Virus record (IMG/VR): IMGVR_UViG_3300025889_000611
Span: 1 to 30,657 of that record
DNA length: 30,657 nucleotides
Direction: 5' to 3' (one strand)
From: a virus
Under the pieces are notes generated by a model. It ran no database searches, was not told the origin of the DNA, and was given only the letters and a program-made list of their open reading frames with translations. Position 1 is the first letter of the stretch; every line of letters begins with the position of its first letter. This document shows positions 3,851 to 13,873 of this stretch, piece by piece. The position numbers were made by a program, and so were the translations under genes.

Positions 3851-5101
3851 ATGGCGCATGCGGCAAATTTGCAATTGAGTAGAAATACTCACGTATTCCT
3901 AGAGAAAACACAGGCGGCTTATTCAGCTCAAACTGCTGATTATTTGTGGCAAATTCCTGTTCTCGATGGATATTCTTTTTCTCAAGCTGTTGCAACTTCA
4001 GAGGTAACTTTGAATGAAATGGCAAGAGATAGTGATTTAAGAACTCGTAGGGCTAGAGCAATGTTTAATGATGCTCTTGAGCCTGCTGAATGGTCTTTTA
4101 CATCTTATGTTCGTCCAGCTAATAATGGACAGTCTGTTGATGAAGCTCTTTGGGCTAATATGTTAGGCAATGTATATTATGATGGAGCGGATTGGCAAAA
4201 TGTTACTACCGGTTCTCCCGTTACTCGTACCCCTGCTTCACAACAAATTTCTTTTGATTGTGAAAGTTCTAATTTTGTAGAATTAGGTATCTTTAACCTA
4301 TATTTTGTACTTGGTGCTTGTGGGGATACCGACCCTGCTGCATATTCTCAAGCAAATGGACAAACTATTTATAAGCTACATGACTGTGTTGTAAATAGTG
4401 CTACAATCGACTTTGATATTGATGGTATTGCTCAAATTACTTGGAGTGGTTTTGGTACAAAAATTGAGCAGCTTATTACTAAATCATTGGCGGGAGCACA
4501 AGCTATTGGTTTGACTGGAGCGACTCCAGGCGGCGGTTTGACTTCTACAAGAAACTTTATCAAGAATCGTTTAACTACTCTTCGCATTGTTCCAGGAGAT
4601 ATCCTCAATGTGGATCGAGACCAAGACTCTGATGGCACGGATGAATTTGAACCCGAATACTACGTAACTCTTACAGGTGGAAGTATTACTTTTGAAAATA
4701 ATATCTCCTTTTTAACTCCAGAAGAACTGTGTCGAGTTAATCTTCCTTTGGGGCATGTTACTGGAACACGAAATATTTCTGGCTCCTTTACTTGCTATCT
4801 AGATGATTCACAACATCAGTCAGGCGGAGCAACAGGAGCAACTAGCTCTAAAATGTTTGCGGATCTTGTTTCTGATAACGCGCGCGGCGTTGTAACAAAT
4901 GATTTCCAGCTATTGTTTAGTGTAGGCGGCTCTGCGGGAGTACCGAAAGCAGACTTTTCCTTCCCAACTGCTCACCTTGAAATTCCGGCACTTAATATCG
5001 AAGATGTTATTTCTCTGGAAACCAGCTTCCATGCGCTTCCGACTTCTTTAGACGGCGCGGATGAGGCAGTAATTACATACATAGGACCTTCTGTATTGTA
5101 A
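3851..5101 (+). CDS. Major tail tube protein
   Basis: A 416-residue protein that builds the hexameric rings of the tail tube. AGGAG at 3839-3843 is spaced 7 nt from the ATG. The protein is rich in Thr, Ser, Gly, Asn and beta strands, with almost no long helices. It includes a TLRIVPGDILNVDRDQDSDG stretch, a GGSITFENNISFLTPEELCRVN strand-loop segment, and GHVTGTRNISGSFTCYLDD, the hairpin type seen in siphovirus tube proteins. Position before the chaperones and tape measure fits. It is longer than lambda gpV (246 residues), so an extra surface domain is possible. A terminator follows within 12 nt of the stop, as expected for an abundant product. Confidence 0.85.
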   Translation: MAHAANLQLSRNTHVFLEKTQAAYSAQTADYLWQIPVLDGYSFSQAVATSEVTLNEMARDSDLRTRRARAMFNDALEPAEWSFTSYVRPANNGQSVDEALWANMLGNVYYDGADWQNVTTGSPVTRTPASQQISFDCESSNFVELGIFNLYFVLGACGDTDPAAYSQANGQTIYKLHDCVVNSATIDFDIDGIAQITWSGFGTKIEQLITKSLAGAQAIGLTGATPGGGLTSTRNFIKNRLTTLRIVPGDILNVDRDQDSDGTDEFEPEYYVTLTGGSITFENNISFLTPEELCRVNLPLGHVTGTRNISGSFTCYLDDSQHQSGGATGATSSKMFADLVSDNARGVVTNDFQLLFSVGGSAGVPKADFSFPTAHLEIPALNIEDVISLETSFHALPTSLDGADEAVITYIGPSVL

Positions 5102-5223: not shown

Positions 5224-5646
5224 ATGAGTGATACTCCCATTTCTCTTTCGAGTCTTATGACTCCAAGTAAAACCGTAACGTTAGACTTTCCGGGCTATTC
5301 TGGATTTAGTGTAGATGTTACTTATTTAGCACGAGAGGAGCTTTTAAAGCTTCGTAAAAAGTGTTTAACTACAAAATTCAATAGAAAAACTCGTCAACCT
5401 GAAGAAGAGTTGAACGAAGATATGTTTTTAATTGAGTATGTAAGGGCAGTAATTAAAGGCTGGAAAGGTCTGAAATTTCGATACCTAGAAGAGCTTCTTT
5501 TGGTAGATGTAACAGAACTTGATCCTGATGATGAACTTCCCTATACCCAAGATAACGCAGAGCTTTTAATGAAAAACTCTGGAGATTTTGATACGTGGAT
5601 TACTGAGGTTGTTGGTGACCTCGAAAATTTTACTGGGAACAAGTAG
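5224..5646 (+). CDS. Tail assembly chaperone, short form (gpG-like)
   Basis: 140 residues, made when the ribosome does not shift frame. In lambda-type tails, gpG coats the tape measure protein, keeps it soluble and helps recruit tube subunits; it is not in the final virion. The sequence is an acidic, small alpha/beta protein (VTLDFPGYSGFSVDVTYLAREELLKLRKKC...; later helical VRAVIKGWKGLKFRYLEELLLVD) lying between the major tail protein and the tape measure, the classic position. A weak Shine-Dalgarno (CGAGG, 5209-5213) is 10 nt from the ATG. The last codons contain a slippery site, and the TAG stop lies inside a predicted hairpin. The call rests on position and the overlapping second frame. 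Confidence 0.82.
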   Translation: MSDTPISLSSLMTPSKTVTLDFPGYSGFSVDVTYLAREELLKLRKKCLTTKFNRKTRQPEEELNEDMFLIEYVRAVIKGWKGLKFRYLEELLLVDVTELDPDDELPYTQDNAELLMKNSGDFDTWITEVVGDLENFTGNK

Positions 5647-6059
5647 CGGAAATAAAAAAGCTACTTAAAAAATATGTAAATCAACAGGAATCAGATTTAG
5701 ACATTGAACGTTACTTGGCTATTTGTGACCAACTAGGTCAAGAGCCTGATCCTGCTAAAATGCCGCTCGAACCTTCTGCTTTTCCAGAGGAAGTTCAAGT
5801 GGCATTTTTTATATTTTCATTATTTTCAGACCACTGGGAAGGAATGAGTGGTACATATTTAGGAAAAAACTGGGATAATTTACCTTATTATTTAGAGCTT
5901 TATGAAGTTCAAAATAAAAAAGAAGTAATTTACTTCATGAAAATTTTTGAAAACATAGTTGTCGAAAACCGTCATAGTGCGGCAGAAAGAAAAAGAAAAC
6001 AAAAAGAGACGGCAGCTAAAAATTCAAGCGGCAAGCAGTTTGCTCATAAGATCGGTTAA
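5224..6059 (+). CDS. Tail assembly chaperone fusion G-T (by -1 frameshift)
   Basis: Long form of the chaperone: 136 codons of the G frame, then a -1 slip at 5625-5631 and 142 codons of the T frame, giving 278 residues. The junction reads LENF-YWEQVAEIKKLL. The T frame is open only from 5619 (stops at 5589, 5604 and 5616), has no ATG with a ribosome site near its beginning, and is continuous with G through the slip, so it is not an independent gene. The T part is helical, with a hydrophobic middle (VQVAFFIFSLFSDHW, YYLELYEVQNKKEVIYFMKIFENI) and a basic tail (ERKRKQKETAAKN). In lambda, the T domain recruits the tube subunit to the G-coated tape measure. The stop overlaps the tape measure start (TAATG). 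Confidence 0.85.
5625..5666 (+). promoter_or_regulatory. Programmed -1 frameshift signal
   Basis: The heptamer A-AAT-TTT (5625-5631) is in the zero frame as gaA AAT TTT, matching X-XXY-YYZ. After 9 nt, AAGTAGC (5641-5647) can pair with GCTACTT (5660-5666), making a 7-bp stem with a 12-nt loop that contains the G stop codon. The distance from slip site to stem is typical for bacterial stimulators. Slip and hairpin are directly visible; efficiency is unknown. Confidence 0.83.
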
Positions 6060-9000
6060 TGGCTAGAAAAATACAAATTGATATTGAAGTCAATGGCAAA
6101 ATGCAAAAAGCCACTGTCTCCGCAAAAAAACTTAGAACTGCACTAGATGGTATTGACGACCGATTAAATAATACCGCAAAAGGCGCTCATAATGCAGATC
6201 GACGGTTAAAAGGAGCTGCTCAAGCTTCCGCAAATGGAACTAAAAACTTTTCTAAAATGGCACAAGGCATCTCAGGAGGTCTTGTTCCTGCCTATGCAAC
6301 TCTTGCTGCCCAAGTATTTGCTGTTAGTGCAGTCTTTCAATTTTTACGTAGTGCAAGTGATACAGCAAACCTAATTGCAGGTCAACAAGCCTTGGCCGCT
6401 ACAACTGGTATAGCTTATAAAAGTATCACAAATAGTATCAAAGAAGCGACGGATGGACAGCTCTCGTTTGCAGAATCTGCAAAAGCTGCTGCTATTGGTA
6501 CAGCTTCTGGACTAAATCCTACTCAACTTGCTGAACTAGGAAGAGCTGCTAAAAATGCTTCTATTGTACTAGGACGAGACCTAACAGATTCTTTTAATCG
6601 TCTGATTCGAGGTGTTACAAAAGCAGAACCAGAACTATTGGATGAATTAGGTATTATTCTTCGATTAGAAACTGCAACAGAAAGGTATAAAAACCAGTTA
6701 GGAATTGCCGGTCGAGAATTAACAGCATTCGAAAGAACTCAAGCGGTAGCAAACGAAGTACTTGGCCAAGCAGAACAAAAATTCGCAGCAGTAGAAGCGA
6801 TTATGGATCCTTCTGCTGCTTCATTAAATAGATTTTTAGTTAGTTTTGAAGAACTAATTAATACAATTAAAACAGGAGTTATTGGGGCTTTACGTCCTGT
6901 ATTTGATTTTCTTTCAGAAAATACAGCATCACTTACTGCAGCTTTAACTTTATTTGCCCTACCAATTGTACGATCAATATTACCTGCTTTCGGAGATTGG
7001 GAAAAAGAGTCTCGTGAAAAAATAAACAGAATAAATAGAACTCTTACTGTTTACGAAAAGAAAATTGAAAAAGCTAAAAGAAAAACTCAAGAATTTGCGG
7101 CAAGTTCTGCGGAAAGAAAGGCAGGAGCAATAACTACTGCTGAAAATATTTTAGGGAAAGATACCCCAGCAAGTAAAATGGGGCGATCAGGAGCAGACTT
7201 TTTACTAGGGCGTTCTGATAGCGCTGCAGCACAAAAAAATGCAAAGAAAATTTTAGACAATGCTGAAGCTCAAATTAAAAAATACGGGGAAGTTACTACC
7301 GGTTACTTAAAAGGTAAAAATGCAGAGCAAGTAGCAGATTTACGTAATTCTTATGCTACAAGAATGGGTATTTTGAAAGGGCACGAAGCCCGCCACAAAG
7401 GAGTAACTACTCGTATGGGAGCTCACTGGAAGCTTTATGCTCTTCAGGGTCGAGCTGCTATGGCACAAATAGGACTAGGATTACAAGGATTAGCGGCAAA
7501 AGCTGCAGCAGCAGGAGCAATGATAAATGCAGCATTTGGTTGGATAGGCTTGATAGTACTTGCAGGTCAAGCCTTGTATGCTGCATATCAATACTTTTTT
7601 CCGGTTGCAGAAGCAGTAACAAAGGCAAAACAAGCAATGGATGACTTTACTCAGTCAACCAAAGATATAAATGAAGAGCTAGGAAAAACTGCAGAAGTTT
7701 TAGGAAGAGGCGATCTTTTAAATATTTCAGATAGTGTTGTTGCAATGGGCAATGCCCTCACAAGTGCAAACTTAGCTGAAAGAGTAGCAGAATTTGGAAA
7801 ATTAGACGAATCAATTGATCCTGATAAGTATGCAGAGGCTAAGTCTGCCCTTGTAGAAACTTTCCGAACAGTAGGGCAATTTAATCCTGAAGTTCGTGCA
7901 CTAGGAGACGCTTTTGAAAGAAATGGATACTTAACAGAAGCCCAAAGCGATCGACTGTCTCAGCTTACAGGTCAAGCTGCAGATACTGCAAGCGCAATAC
8001 AAGGTCTTGCAGGCGCAATGGAAACTCTTGATCAAATTCTTCTTGAAGTTGGCGCAAAAGTACGCGCAGGTCCTTTTGCTCGTTTGGGTGCTGCGGCCAG
8101 ATCCGCGGCAGACTTGAGTAATACTGCTCTTGCTGGCATGGAAGAAGAATATGCAGGCCGACGTTCAGGTTTAGCAACTAACGTTGCAATGGCAGAAACA
8201 AATGTAAAAGTCAGAGGCTCGGATGAAGATGTCGAAGCGCTGAAAAAAGTCAGAAAAGAGCTAGAAGCAGTTGATGCTGAAATGGAAGCAGCAAGAACTC
8301 AAAATGAGTACTTAAATAATTTAGCAAAAGAATACGAAGGAATATCTGGTACTCTACTCGAAAATGAAAGAACTAGAGGAGAGCTAGGAAAGTCTTTTGC
8401 AGAAGCTCAAACTCTTGGAAGAACTGAAGCCGAAAAAATAGCAAACTTAGAAGCAGAAAGATTCAAGGCAGGTCAAGCCATTTTAAGTGCAACAGATAAA
8501 GTAACGGTTGCAAAAGCAAATCAAAATGCTCTTACTGAAAGATCTTCTCAGCAGGATAAGGATGCCGCAGCAGCAGCAGTTCAAGCCGCAGAAGATGAAA
8601 TGAGTATGCTACGTACTACTCTAGGACTAGAGGAGCAAAGAAGGCAGATACGAATCGACGAGCTAGAAAGAGCAAAAGAAATAAGACTTCAAAGAGAAAG
8701 CATGAAGCCCCTTGAGCTGCAGCAGCAAGTTACTGCTCAAATGGAAAAGCAGAATCAGCTAATTGCAGAGCAGCAAAGAGCTACAGAGCAAGTTCTCAAT
8801 GCTCGACTAGAACGCGTACTAATGAGCACTCGTAGTGAAGGAGGCTATCAAAACGAAGAACAAGCACTGCAAGCAAGAATCAAGCTAGAAGAGCACATGG
8901 TTAAAGTGAGACAAGCTGCAATTATGCGCGAGTATCGAATGAAACTCATTCAAATTGACATGGAAAATAAAATGCTCAAGGCAAGAAACAAACTTGCAAG

Positions 9001-10231
9001 ACTCGAGCTTTTAGCAGCAAGAGAAAAAACCAATCCTGGAGCAGGATTAACGGAACAAGAAGAAAGTTTATTTAAAACAATTGATGCAATGGCAGATAAA
9101 ACAAGAGATATTGCTATGACCACTGCTGAAATGTCAAAAAATGCCGCATTAGAAACGGTAGATCTTACACTAGAAAAAATGCAACAAAAGTTACAAGATC
9201 TAAGCTTCGAAGGTCAAATGGCCGCAGCTTTTGAAGGAGGTGTTAGAACTGGAATTGGAAATGCTTTTCAAACTTTAAAAGAGGGTGGAAGTTTAAAAGA
9301 TGTAGTAATGGGCTTTATTGATGGTATTGCAGACGCAGCACTAGCAGCGATTGAAAAACGTATTACAGATTCTATTATGGAAGCTTTATTCGGACCCGAA
9401 GAAGGGCCTGCGGAAAAAATGGAAAAAGTTCTTCAAAATGAGCCCTTATCTGGAAATGTAGGAACAGTTATCGAAGATAAAGGAAAGAAATTTACCGAGG
9501 ACTTAGAAAGTGCTTTAAGTTCAGAATTAGAGCATAGAGTAAAAGTAGAGTGTTGTGCCTCTGCCGAAAGTGAAAGTGAAAGTGAAAGTAGTGACCCTAT
9601 TACAAATATAGTGAAAAGCATAACAAAAAAAGACGGAGACGATCCTGTAGGTGACGATCCTGTAGATCCAGCAGGCAAAGCAGAAGAAACTGTAGGAATC
9701 CTTGGGGACCTTGGAAATTCCTTTATGAAACTTCTTGATAATCTAGGATCTTTTGGAGACGTATTGAAAGATTTAGGCTCTTGGATTATGAATCTATTTG
9801 GAGGAAGTGGCGGTGGAGGTTTTGGCGATATAATAAATATGGTAATGGGTTTCTTTGGCTTTGGTGGAGGTGCTCGCTATGGAGGTATCATGAGCGCTCG
9901 TTACGGAGCGGTCGCCCAAGCAAATTACGCCGCCGGGGGCATAGCTAGAGGTAGAGACAGTGGTTATCCTGCTATACTACATGGAACAGAAGCTGTGGTT
10001 CCTCTTCCGCATGGCAATAAAATACCCGTAGAGTTAAAGGGAGCAGGGGGAACTCAAAACAATGTTGGAGTAACCGTAAATATTAATAATAAAGATGAAT
10101 CAGAAACCTCATCAGATAGCGACAGTGCAGAAGGCGAACAGCTTGGTAGAGCAATTGCTGCGGCTGTCCAGAAAGAGCTTATAACTCAAAAAAGAGCCGG
10201 CGGAATGTTAAGTCCGTATGGAGTACAATAA
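6059..10231 (+). CDS. Tail tape measure protein
   Basis: 1390 residues, the longest gene of the proximal tail module and directly after the G-T chaperone (TAATG overlap). It sets tail length and is later ejected with the DNA. The N-terminus (about 1-130) contains a helical segment and a hydrophobic stretch (VPAYATLAAQVFAVSAVFQFL). Further hydrophobic segments lie near residues 290-315 and 477-515. A long Glu/Lys/Gln/Ala coiled-coil region spans roughly 720-1030. The C-terminus is Gly-rich (GGSGGGGFGD, FFGFGGGARYGG), followed by GYPAILHGTEAVVPLPHG, a motif typical of tape measure C-termini. At the usual rule of about 0.15 nm per residue, the tail would be near 200 nm (inference). No lysozyme or peptidase motif was recognised. 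Confidence 0.92.
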   Translation: MARKIQIDIEVNGKMQKATVSAKKLRTALDGIDDRLNNTAKGAHNADRRLKGAAQASANGTKNFSKMAQGISGGLVPAYATLAAQVFAVSAVFQFLRSASDTANLIAGQQALAATTGIAYKSITNSIKEATDGQLSFAESAKAAAIGTASGLNPTQLAELGRAAKNASIVLGRDLTDSFNRLIRGVTKAEPELLDELGIILRLETATERYKNQLGIAGRELTAFERTQAVANEVLGQAEQKFAAVEAIMDPSAASLNRFLVSFEELINTIKTGVIGALRPVFDFLSENTASLTAALTLFALPIVRSILPAFGDWEKESREKINRINRTLTVYEKKIEKAKRKTQEFAASSAERKAGAITTAENILGKDTPASKMGRSGADFLLGRSDSAAAQKNAKKILDNAEAQIKKYGEVTTGYLKGKNAEQVADLRNSYATRMGILKGHEARHKGVTTRMGAHWKLYALQGRAAMAQIGLGLQGLAAKAAAAGAMINAAFGWIGLIVLAGQALYAAYQYFFPVAEAVTKAKQAMDDFTQSTKDINEELGKTAEVLGRGDLLNISDSVVAMGNALTSANLAERVAEFGKLDESIDPDKYAEAKSALVETFRTVGQFNPEVRALGDAFERNGYLTEAQSDRLSQLTGQAADTASAIQGLAGAMETLDQILLEVGAKVRAGPFARLGAAARSAADLSNTALAGMEEEYAGRRSGLATNVAMAETNVKVRGSDEDVEALKKVRKELEAVDAEMEAARTQNEYLNNLAKEYEGISGTLLENERTRGELGKSFAEAQTLGRTEAEKIANLEAERFKAGQAILSATDKVTVAKANQNALTERSSQQDKDAAAAAVQAAEDEMSMLRTTLGLEEQRRQIRIDELERAKEIRLQRESMKPLELQQQVTAQMEKQNQLIAEQQRATEQVLNARLERVLMSTRSEGGYQNEEQALQARIKLEEHMVKVRQAAIMREYRMKLIQIDMENKMLKARNKLARLELLAAREKTNPGAGLTEQEESLFKTIDAMADKTRDIAMTTAEMSKNAALETVDLTLEKMQQKLQDLSFEGQMAAAFEGGVRTGIGNAFQTLKEGGSLKDVVMGFIDGIADAALAAIEKRITDSIMEALFGPEEGPAEKMEKVLQNEPLSGNVGTVIEDKGKKFTEDLESALSSELEHRVKVECCASAESESESESSDPITNIVKSITKKDGDDPVGDDPVDPAGKAEETVGILGDLGNSFMKLLDNLGSFGDVLKDLGSWIMNLFGGSGGGGFGDIINMVMGFFGFGGGARYGGIMSARYGAVAQANYAAGGIARGRDSGYPAILHGTEAVVPLPHGNKIPVELKGAGGTQNNVGVTVNINNKDESETSSDSDSAEGEQLGRAIAAAVQKELITQKRAGGMLSPYGVQ
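9566..9589 (+). repeat. In-frame hexanucleotide repeat (GAAAGT)x4
   Basis: Four perfect copies of GAAAGT encode Glu-Ser pairs in the tape measure protein, just after a Cys-Cys pair. Because the unit is 6 nt, slippage would change length by two residues without breaking the frame. It probably forms a flexible acidic linker before the Gly-rich C-terminal part. Confidence 0.8.
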
Positions 10232-13200
10232 ATGGCAACAACAGTATCAGCAACGACGCCTTCTAATCCGAGCCAAGGAGATTTATGGTTTGATTCTGTA
10301 AATCTTAGACTGTTTGTGTATTATGACGATGGAAGTAGTGCACAGTGGGTAATAACTGGGCCAACAGGATTAACAGGTGCTCAAGGCCCTGCAGGAGCAG
10401 CAGGTGTAAATGGAACAAGCGGTCCGCAAGGTCCGCAAGGCACCACAGGCCCACAAGGTCCCACAGGTAATACAGGGCCACAAGGCCCTCAAGGGATCCA
10501 AGGCGATGATGGTCCGGCTGGTCCTGCCGGACCAGCGGGTCCAGTAGGCCCACAAGGACCCATTGGCGTTCCCGGATCAGACGGAGCAACTGGTCCCGCA
10601 GGTCCTCAAGGACCTATTGGCTTAACTGGATCTACAGGACCTCAAGGGCCTCAAGGTCCTCAAGGAGCAACAGGACCCGCAGGCCCTCAAGGTGATACAG
10701 GAGCTACAGGAGCTACAGGAGCTATTGGCCCACAAGGCCCCGCAGGAGTAGACGGAAATCAAGGCCCAGCGGGCCCGATAGGGGCTACTGGTCCTCAAGG
10801 TCCCACAGGTCCTCAAGGTCCTCAAGGTCCTCAAGGAATTCAAGGAGATGAGGGTATTGAAGGCCCTCAAGGTCCTGCTGGTCCAATAGGGCCTGCTGGA
10901 CCTCAAGGTGCGACAGGGCCTCAAGGACTACAAGGACTTACTGGCCAAACTGGGACAAAGGGGGATACAGGTGCAATAGGGCCTCAAGGCCCTCAAGGAG
11001 ATCAAGGAGATCAAGGTCCTACTGGTCCTCCAGGTCCTCAAGGTGCTACAGGGCTCACAGGTCCTACAGGTCCCATTGGTCCTGCTGGAGCCACAGGTGC
11101 TACAGGTCCTCAAGGTGCCACAGGGCTCACAGGTCCTCAAGGACCCGCAGGCAATGATGGAGCTGACGGAGCTACAGGCCCTCAAGGCCCTCAAGGACCT
11201 GCCGGACCCGCTGGGGCTACAGGACCTCAAGGCCCTCAGGGCCCTCAAGGGATTCAAGGCGATGATGGGGCTATAGGACCTGCCGGACCTGCCGGACCTC
11301 AAGGTCTCACAGGTCCCGCTGGTAATGATGGAGTAGATGGAGTAGATGGAGCTCAAGGTGCCCAAGGCCCTATAGGCCCTCAAGGTCCTCAAGGTCCTCA
11401 AGGTGCTCAAGGTCCTACTGGTACTCAAGGCCCAATAGGACCTGCCGGAGTAGACGGAAATCAAGGTGCAGCAGGTCCTCAGGGCCCTGTTGGAGCTAGT
11501 GGTGCTGGTTTTACATCTGGATCATATAACGCATCTACAGGAATTGTAACATTTACTTCAAATGATGGATTAGGATTTATTACAGGCGATCTTCGAGGCG
11601 ATGGAAATAGAGGTATTTCTTCTGCTCTTATAGACGGAAACGATGATCTTATTCTTACTTTAAATGATGGTACAAGTCTAAATGCTGGTAATTCTACTGG
11701 ACCTACAGGTCCACAAGGTCCTACTGGTCCTACTGGTCCTACTGGTCCTACTGGCCCTCAAGGCCCAACAGGCCCTCAAGGTGCCGGAATAACTATGAAA
11801 GGAGCCGTTGCAGCAGCAGTAGATCTTCCTGCAACTAACAACGCTCAAGGAGATGCGTATCTTGTACAAAGTAACGATAGCTTACATATTTGGAACGGAA
11901 CTCAATGGGTAGATGGAGGCTCTATTCAAGGTCCTACAGGTCTTACTGGGCCTACAGGAGCAACAGGACCTACCGGACCGCAAGGAGCTACAGGTCCTAC
12001 TGGCTTGGGATTTACAGGAGGAACTTACACTGCGTCCACAGGAATTGTAACATTTACTTCAAATGATGGGCTAGGATTTACTACTGGAGATTTACGAGGA
12101 GATGGAAATAGAGGTATTTCTTCGGCAACTATTGATGGAAATGATGATTTAATACTTACACTTGCCGATAACTCAACTATAAATGCAGGAAACGCTACAG
12201 GTCCAACAGGTGCAACAGGTCCTCAAGGTCCAATTGGTCCTACAGGCGCTACGGGTGCTACAGGTTTAACAGGCGCTACAGGTCCACAAGGTCCACAAGG
12301 CGCTACAGGACCAACAGGTGCGGCAGGAGTAGACGGAACAGGATTTACAGGAGGCTCCTATGATAATAGTACAGGTGTAGTAACTTTTACATCTGACGAT
12401 GGACTCGGATTTTCTACTACTGATTTAAGAGGGGCGGATGGAGCCGATGGCCTAGATGGTCAAGCAATTTTAAATTTTGATGTTGCCCCAAATAGTACAA
12501 ATACTGCGTTTACTTTTTCAGGCGGAGTGTTTGTTGCAGATACAGATAACCCCACTTTGCACTTACAAAAAGGACTTGAATATCACTTTAATTTATTTGA
12601 TGAAGACCTTCCTTTAGCAAATACACATTGGTTTGCTTCAGGCTCTCAATTTAGTGACTATACTCAATTGTTTGGGCAGGCTACCGGAATAAGTGATGGA
12701 AGTGCAACACTATTAAATCCAATATCAGGAAGTGCTCAATTTACTACATATAATGGTAATCCTGCTATAAATGTTACAACTACTTTTTCTCAAGGACAAC
12801 AAAGCGGAGCACATACTCGCCGAGGATATGCATACTCAAATGAATTTACAGTGCCTGCAGGAACAGTATTAAGTTTTAATGTACAATCTTCAGGACACAA
12901 TTCTAATTATGAGTCAGTAAATGCAATAAGTCTTATAGATTATACAAATTCAGCATATACAATTTTATTTAATAGATTAAGTTCTAGCTCTGCACTTAAT
13001 ACCTCAGGGGATAAAACTTTTACAATTGCTCTTGCGGGTACTTACCGTATAATGATGGCAAGTGGAGGAAAACGAGCGGCTGGAGGTTTTTCTTCTACTA
13101 ATCAAACTTTTTCAATCACTCTGTCCGATCTCGCACTGTCTAATGGGCAGCCTATCTGGTTCCAAACATCTTCTGGTGCATATAATGCAGCAAATGTACT

Positions 13201-13873
13201 TGGAACTGCAGATGGCGTAACAAATAATGGTGCAGAAAGGGATAGTCTTGTATTTAAAGTTCCTATGAATGCGCCTGATGTTCTTTATTATGTAGCTGAG
13301 AACACTCCTGCAATGACCGGTACAATTTATACTAGCGATGCGGCAGCAAGTGGCAGCAGTTCTAGCTCATCAATTCTGTTTACAAAATTCTATATATCTG
13401 CAAGTCAACCAAGCTCTACTATTACAAATAGTGCATATCTAGGTCAAAATGTAGGAACTTGGTATGAAGCAACTTTTGCTAATGCTGCAAATACGGCAGG
13501 ATTATCTCCAGATAGTGCAACTCGAGATCCAACACTGACAGGTATAACTTTTAGTGGAGATAGGTTCTCCGGTTTTGAACAAGACGCAACCTATGAAATA
13601 TCAGTACAGCCAGAAGTATACGAAAGAAATAGCACAGCAGGGCAAAGGTACCACGGTTGGGAAGCAAGCACAGGCGCATTTAGTTCTGCAGGATGGTTAA
13701 GTCCAGGCACTGGATCATTTAACATTGATGGTATCACTGTATCAGATAGTATAATTGTAACATTTGAAGATGCTACACCAGCAAATAACTGGGTCAGGTA
13801 TATTTTAGATTCGGATCAAAGTCAAAACTATTGGATTGGTCAAGCAATATTGACCATAAAGAAAATAGGGTAG
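10232..13873 (+). CDS. Giant collagen-like tail appendage protein
   Basis: 1213 residues, starting one base after the tape measure stop. Layout: residues 1-42 form a small module ([20 protein letters not shown]) also seen at the start of the next gene. Residues 43-425 are Gly-X-Y with no interruption, rich in Pro-Gln, Pro-Ala and Ala-Thr triplets. Three related beta modules (starting at 426, about 593 and 704) are separated by short collagen tracts. Residues about 740-1213 are a beta-rich C-terminal region, likely the outer adhesive end. Phage collagen tracts form trimeric triple helices, so a trimeric fibre with a rod of about 110 nm (0.286 nm per residue) is plausible. Lambda has no gene of this kind between H and M. 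Host target is unknown; the structural-fibre role is inferred from composition and context. Confidence 0.78.
10358..11506 (+). repeat. Uninterrupted Gly-X-Y collagen tract
   Basis: About 127 consecutive Gly-X-Y triplets with no break, residues 43-425. At DNA level it is a degenerate 9-nt repeat dominated by ggtcctcaa and its variants (ggccctcaa, ggacctgcc, ggtgctaca). The varied synonymous codons would reduce recombination between units, but the tract is still a likely site for length change. Confidence 0.95.
11507..12448 (+). repeat. Three related beta modules in the collagen-like gene
   Basis: Modules begin at 11507, 12008 and 12341, each opening G-F-T-x-G-x-Y and continuing [15 protein letters not shown] then DLRG. 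The first two are about 65 residues and continue [21 protein letters not shown] before another collagen tract. The third is cut short after DLRG and runs into [11 protein letters not shown] separate module with [14 protein letters not shown] lies between the first two. They look like domain duplication with insertion of collagen linkers. Confidence 0.85.

Follow-up and report, generated by a model that had tools for sequence, protein, structure and literature searches.

Lambda makes the tail assembly chaperones gpG and gpGT by a -1 frameshift, an event reportedly described by Levin in 1993 and by Xu in 2004 and 2013. The place of G and T in lambda precedes the tape measure gene. The locus analyzed here lies in a virus record of 30,657 bases, which was examined as a whole and is called the window below. 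Its layout is the same as that of lambda, with G followed by a T in the -1 frame that lacks a start of its own, and its presumed job is also the same; in lambda, the shift is a low-level -1 slip. The two differ in the slip site, which is G_GGA_AAG in lambda and A_AAT_TTT in the window, and the window further departs from lambda in having a covarying stem 8-9 nt downstream and in its sequence kinship with T5-like phages. According to the available text of PMC5009743, the ratio of G to G-T is important in lambda, and both proteins bind to the tape measure and to the tube protein. The gp17.5/gp17.5* pair of SPP1 resembles the window as well, as it has an AT-type heptamer in the tail chaperone gene and a T domain at -1. 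The available part of PMC6316719 gives a putative -1 shift at UUUUUUC for this pair and describes no stem for SPP1.

By sequence, the T5-like phages (Demerecviridae) are closer. Their G is 30-39% identical to that of the window, their T is homologous and the pair is located before the tape measure region, but their T lies at +1 with UUU_CG(U/A), whereas T of the window lies at -1. The UUU_CGN of these relatives fits the class of the influenza A PA-X +1 site UCC_UUU_CGU; PA-X belongs to a eukaryotic virus, and the likeness concerns the relatives and not the window. In the excerpts of PMC3498833 available, UUC is a better match than UUU for the Phe anticodon, UUU_C is predicted as a class of sites, and CGN is favoured in the A site. 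Signals for -1 shifting in other genes, namely E. coli dnaX and IS3-type elements, consist of a heptamer with a downstream stem and sometimes an upstream Shine-Dalgarno (SD) element, and 72% of heptamers in IS elements are A_AA.A_AA.G or A_AA.A_AA.A (PMC4066793, in part). The direction of the shift differs between unrelated tail systems, as passages on haloarchaeal viruses (PMC5009743) and on the -2 shift of Mu (PMC3498833) indicate. A further -1 case is not surprising, because G-T frameshifting in tail chaperones is textbook knowledge. A literature search that left most subscription papers outside found no description of a chaperone frameshift in T5-like phages, and searches of the same reach on a direction switch within a family and on a conserved stem in a tail chaperone signal found no report of either.

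The head-tail module of the window is siphophage-like, and all features given here are on the plus strand. The chaperone pair is placed between the gene for the major tail (tube) protein (3851-5101; PHROG 3575, E 5.9e-50; Pfam Phage_tube_2) and the gene for the tape measure protein (6059-10231; PHROG 3779, E 9.4e-45). G (5224-5646) starts with ATG at 5224, ends with TAG at 5644-5646 and encodes a zero-frame product of 140 aa that matches PHROG 313, 'tail assembly chaperone' (E 2.2e-13). T (5619-6059), the putative C-terminal domain of a G-T fusion, is read in the -1 frame, matches PHROG 3914, also 'tail assembly chaperone' (E 4.1e-16), and stops at 6057-6059, where the tape measure gene begins. 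Directly after the tape measure gene, positions 10232-13873 encode a 1213-aa protein with long collagen-like G-X-Y repeats.

When G was compared with annotated records, 875 were matched, mainly from Vibrio, Salmonella, Escherichia, and Klebsiella phages and all below 60% identity. The nearest annotated phage records are T5-like, and the tape measure and capsid proteins agree with G in this respect. By tblastn, the major capsid protein, the N-terminus of the tape measure protein, G and T all have homologs in T5-like phages, with best matches all below 60% identity. The initial annotation had described the tail as lambda-type, which fits the job of the pair but not the kinship of the sequences. 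Nearer relatives are uncultivated viral contigs. The first scan alone gave 401 stretches, of which the best 80 of 401 were kept, and later scans added more; the 70E34 G protein as query contributed two loci only. Duplicates were removed on the 300 bases before and the 60 bases after the G stop. This gave 202 distinct junctions in the first pool (188 with T at -1, 13 at +1, and 1 unreadable) and 216 once later loci were included (194 at -1, 21 at +1, and 1 unreadable). Two rows were excluded, L064 as too short and L256 as having no G, and the incomplete loci L344, L347, and L359 were omitted from the 216-junction set.

In the window, T overlaps G at -1 and has no start at the junction. A TGA at 5616-5618 shuts the T frame upstream, and the first start-like codons within it are TTG at 5715 and then ATG at 5760, so that the earlier statement that T is open only from 5619 and has no start nearby was correct. 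Comparison of the relatives establishes the same frame layout. The slip heptamer A_AAT_TTT is located at 5625-5631, inside the overlap, and the zero-frame codons at 5623-5631 are GAA AAT TTT. A canonical X_XXY_YYZ heptamer in the zero frame is intact in 194 of 194 distinct -1 junctions, being A_AAT_TTT in 193 and T_TTT_TTT in the other. The junction reads GAAAATTTTAC in 192 of the 194, GAAAATTTTAT in one, and GATTTTTTTAC in one, L175, which is the row with the T_TTT_TTT heptamer. In 98 of the 194 junctions the T frame opens at exactly the first base of the heptamer, because the bases just before it form a stop in the T frame. On the other side, the zero-frame stop sets the limit.

Codon usage also sets the slip site apart. 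Among 128 profiled G codons (5248-5631), synonymous variation is absent only at GAA, AAT, and TTT, which are kept in 191, 191, and 192 of 192 rows, with L175 as the exception; elsewhere in G, the codons for Glu, Asn, and Phe are mostly variable synonymously. The profiling left out two of the 194 rows in one count and one in the other. Just downstream, the AAC codon at 5638 likewise shows no synonymous variation, and its last base, the C before the stem, is C in 194 of 194 junctions. Heptamers of the form H_HH.U_UU.Y, including A_AA.U_UU.U, are listed among the most efficient in E. coli measurements in the portion of PMC4066793 available.

In a scan of 1,429 codons in five genes, with the terminator gene represented by 36 rows only, the 6-codon mean fell below 0.45 only at the slip site, at the start of the tail tube gene, and at two further islands. 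One of these, in G at 5482-5508 (TACCTAGAAGAGCTTCTTTTGGTAGAT), precedes the slip site by some 120 nt. Synonymous variation is almost absent from it (observed/expected 0.03-0.17 at six of nine codons), and it can fold as a hairpin of -6.8 kcal/mol. The other is in T at 5796-5813 (CAAGTGGCATTTTTTATA), where synonymous variation is near zero. Part of it, AGTGGCAT, pairs with ATGCCGCT at 5760-5767 across a loop of constant length (30 nt), and the 5' arm at 5760 begins ATGCC in every one of the 186 relatives whose 3' arm could be located. Long-range pairing of 5482-5508 with 5796-5813 was considered and rejected, as the duplex (-14.2 kcal/mol) is not among the best partners of either island.

A stem of only 7 bp follows the heptamer. 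The spacer is 9 nt (5632-5640), or 8 nt where the stem of relatives closes with an additional C-G pair; the 5' arm AAGTAGC is at 5641-5647, the 12-nt loop at 5648-5659, and the 3' arm GCTACTT at 5660-5666. The initial annotation had placed the slip site, the spacer, the stem and the loop length correctly, but it had put the G stop inside the loop, and the stop at 5644-5646 sits in the 5' arm. Its further proposal that the hairpin hides the stop does not hold, because the ribosome must open the stem before it decodes the stop. The usual spacer between heptamer and stem is quoted as 5-8 nt in the available text of PMC4066793, and the 9 nt of the window is slightly longer, while the 8 nt of relatives with the additional C-G pair is at the upper limit. 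Folding of the 44 nt at 5632-5675 gave -7.9 kcal/mol (z -4.4); equal stability was reached by 1 of 200 shuffles and by 10 of 1000 synonymous T-frame recodings of the window. When 99 nt were folded (5632-5730), the minimum-energy structure paired the same 5' arm with a later stretch. Folding of a single sequence does not settle the pairing, which is settled by the alignments.

Covariation was evaluated in 177 of the 194 -1 junctions, with 12 left out for another stop position and 5 for short flanks. Twelve pairs were each tested against 300 simulations in which columns changed independently of one another along a tree built from the flanking DNA. With positions counted from the G stop, the pair +3/+16 occurs as AT in 64 loci, CG in 51, GC in 21, and TA in 14 (n = 177), which amounts to all four Watson-Crick pairs; it ranks first among 570 column pairs and exceeds 300 of 300 tree simulations. 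Protein constraint does not explain this matching, because in T the two bases belong to different codons, +3 at the second position of its codon and +16 at the third. Pairs +4/+15, -1/+20, and +2/+17 were judged by two measures: at least one of these lay above every simulation, and the other was equalled or passed by at most one simulation. The signal is weaker at +5/+14 (p about 0.01), and pairs +6/+13 and +7/+12 fit the null expectation. Five of the 12 pairs could give no signal because one side is invariant or nearly so. Covariation of the stem in relatives, which had been named beforehand as a check, was found at +3/+16 and at three more pairs.

RNAalifold and shuffle tests were performed on 48 of the 177 rows, picked by script for diversity. 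Given no structure, RNAalifold recovered six of seven pairs, three of them compensated, at a modest consensus energy of -3.1 kcal/mol, of which -0.7 came from covariation. The covariation score was 0.313 against 0.160 in shuffles, none of 500 being as high. When the 9-pair stem was named, 83.8% of cells paired against 74.3% in shuffles (0/500), and cells with a double change numbered 43 against 16.0 (0/500). Further pair types numbered 15 against 12.8 (27/500), and the count of pairs with a double change showed no excess over shuffles in these 48 rows (455/500). Slid versions of the same stem paired in only 28-40% of cells. In 60 sets of synonymous T recodings, 6.15 of the 9 pairs were kept against 7.72 observed, and the mean minimum free energy was -4.2 against -10.6 kcal/mol observed. 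The stem is maintained by compensatory change, and, on this comparison of aligned sequences, selection preserves it 8-9 nt past the heptamer throughout the 177 relatives examined.

The stem is not uniform, and in 29 of the 177 relatives no more than 5 pairs form without interruption when the stem is read in the register of the window. In 12 of the 194 -1 junctions (L186, L289, L199, L272, L270, L215, L263, L259, L245, L334, L229, and L228), the end of G is longer, the G stop is 28 nt past the heptamer, and the register of the window holds no stem. By eye, several of these 12 have other inverted repeats about 15 nt or more past the heptamer, such as CCCGAAT/ATTCGGG, and in some of them the arms could also cross-pair in pseudoknot order.

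We consider it very probable that this locus carries a programmed -1 ribosomal frameshift, with a stem downstream, that fuses the tail chaperone G to the T domain. Most ribosomes would end G at the TAG at 5644. In a minority, tRNA-Asn would occupy AAU in the P site and tRNA-Phe UUU in the A site as the leading edge of the ribosome meets AAGUAGC/GCUACUU. A pause at the stem, 9 nt downstream, would allow both tRNAs to slip back onto AAA and UUU, and decoding would then run through LENF-YWEQ into T, with the predicted junction peptide ...GDLENFYWEQVAEIK. The resulting many G and few G-T may chaperone the assembly of the tape measure and the tail tube, a role assumed by analogy with lambda. For the stem, the most plausible role is that of a stimulator of -1 slippage, acting through a pause or through tension. 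Other ways of extending G were rejected. Readthrough of the G stop would end early, as the zero frame stays open for 6 codons in the median (maximum 29, n = 176), and a +1 shift would do the same, with the +1 frame shutting after 7 codons in the window and after a median of 7 in relatives (maximum 25, n = 176). Use of TAG as a sense codon in the window is not supported, as its long genes are open under table 11.

It is possible, if unlikely, that the -1 shift at A_AAT_TTT is real while the stem serves another purpose (mRNA stability, a folding pause, or termination control) or is largely dispensable. Such a reading would accommodate the 12 of 194 relatives in which the stem is absent at the place seen in the window and the 29 of 177 in which it is weak. 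Lambda is not known to need a clear downstream structure. Of 194 relatives, 120 have an SD-like motif in range upstream, most commonly AGGTG at 8 nt (89 relatives), compared with a frequency of 8.1% at control positions in G, and another stimulator may therefore carry the load; protein constraint on Val-Gly-Asp may account for part of this signal. In the window, the corresponding element is GAGG at 5605-5608, which lies 17 nt upstream, at the limit of the range, and is a weak candidate. Against a stem without stimulating function stand the 177 relatives in which it is under selection close to the place expected of a stimulator, and the inverted repeats that, by eye, several of the 12 exceptions carry downstream instead.

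Readings without a ribosomal shift fare worse. Production of T as a separate protein, by reinitiation or from an internal start at TTG 5715 or ATG 5760, appears highly improbable, even though in 107 of 176 relatives an ATG, 113 or 116 nt past the G stop, is the earliest codon in the T frame that resembles a start, and a start of its own is annotated for T in most T5-like records fetched. From the heptamer onward the T frame is open, and it begins exactly there in the 98 junctions mentioned above. The earliest start-like codon comes 71 nt or more downstream in the most frequent arrangements; among the cases listed, the distance is 32 nt in 7 and 59 nt in 2. A heptamer devoid of synonymous variation also counts against a separate T. 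Slippage of RNA polymerase in the A4T4 tract, in place of the ribosome, would suit an AT-rich site, but it has no need of a covarying downstream stem or of the exact phasing on zero-frame AAT TTT, and transcriptional slippage usually wants a longer homopolymer; we give it even less credence. That a single gene was split by an assembly or sequencing error has a negligible probability and is already refuted, because independent contigs share the split, which is common to 194 distinct junctions, and both the slip site and the stem are under selection.

The probable -1 shift of the window appears to have a counterpart in the opposite direction. T lies at +1 in 18 named T5-related phage records (L162-L166, L168-L174, and L361-L366), most of whose annotations give T a separate start, and in 12 readable uncultured loci. 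A script searched no farther than 100 nt from the G stop and took the last TTTC in the zero frame as the site, which makes UUU_C a requirement and the following codon the only free result; the sites read UUU_CG(U/A) in 28 of the 30 loci and carry CAC after UUU in 2 of 30. Some of the 30 are near-copies, and 21 distinct +1 junctions were counted before the last seven records were added. In 18 of the 30 loci the +1 frame opens 5 nt before UUU, and in L164 and L168 the G stop starts 6 nt past the first base of UUU, so the frame opening and the stop pin the site in these two to about 11 nt. Loss of the slip site in relatives whose T has a start had been named in the initial annotation as evidence that would speak against frameshifting. 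The T5-like phages do lack the -1 site and have an annotated start for T, but they carry a putative +1 site at the same Phe codon. In phage DaisyDussoix (L171), for example, this site is ACT TTT CGT, and the fusion would read HLDTF-VAQK across the junction. In the available part of a genome note (PMC6256483), the chaperone gene of T5 and Sugarland is said to lack any predicted frameshift signal; our reading of the T5-like junctions suggests the contrary.

The Aeromonas phages AhSzw-1 and Akh-2 (Shenzhenvirus; L167 and L360) are not readable under table 11. They have many in-frame TAG codons in tail genes, up to 16 in a single partial frame, and these genes read through only with TAG as a residue. 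This suggests a reassigned UAG, which would explain the fragmentary annotation. Their chaperone pair is also at +1, with F-R at the junction.

The junction Phe is invariant in an alignment of 16 G proteins and corresponds to F136 in the window, the codon at which the window would slip back. The window does not share the +1 position of T with UUU_CGN, and sister lineages of one gene pair appear to shift in opposite ways at the same Phe codon. Among the relatives with T at +1, L348 reads GAG AAT TTT CGT ACT GGA TCA A, and the window reads GAA AAT TTT ACT GGG AAC AA. Aligned by eye on the shared T Gln codon (VLDQ vs YWEQ), the junction of the window is 2 nt shorter. A shift that re-reads one base instead of skipping one makes up for exactly these 2 nt, and the length of the fusion would therefore be unchanged.

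A G tree of 86 rows, comprising all 21 +1 junctions and 65 -1 junctions thinned by identity, places -1 and +1 as one change of state (support 99/90; 200 of 200 bootstrap trees). One change was also obtained after the junction columns were removed (SH-aLRT 85); both trees have few columns, several long branches, and a midpoint root only. The +1 state is the likelier ancestor, because both the T5-like lineages and the clade that is sister to the -1 group have it. On balance, we think it probable that one family reversed its frameshift. An ancestral +1 site UUU_CGN, of the T5-like kind, would have lost CGN and gained a base, GAA AAU UUU would have become a -1 heptamer at the unchanged Phe codon, and a stem would have been added downstream while the length of the fusion was kept.

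The covarying stem over 177 related junctions provides a natural series in which to study how stem strength and spacing may set the product ratio. As the opposite directions appear to be used at the same codon and are separated by a single change, the way in which the direction of recoding evolves becomes testable. On this reading, laboratory T5-like phages of E. coli K-12 should make a +1 product that is missing from their annotation.
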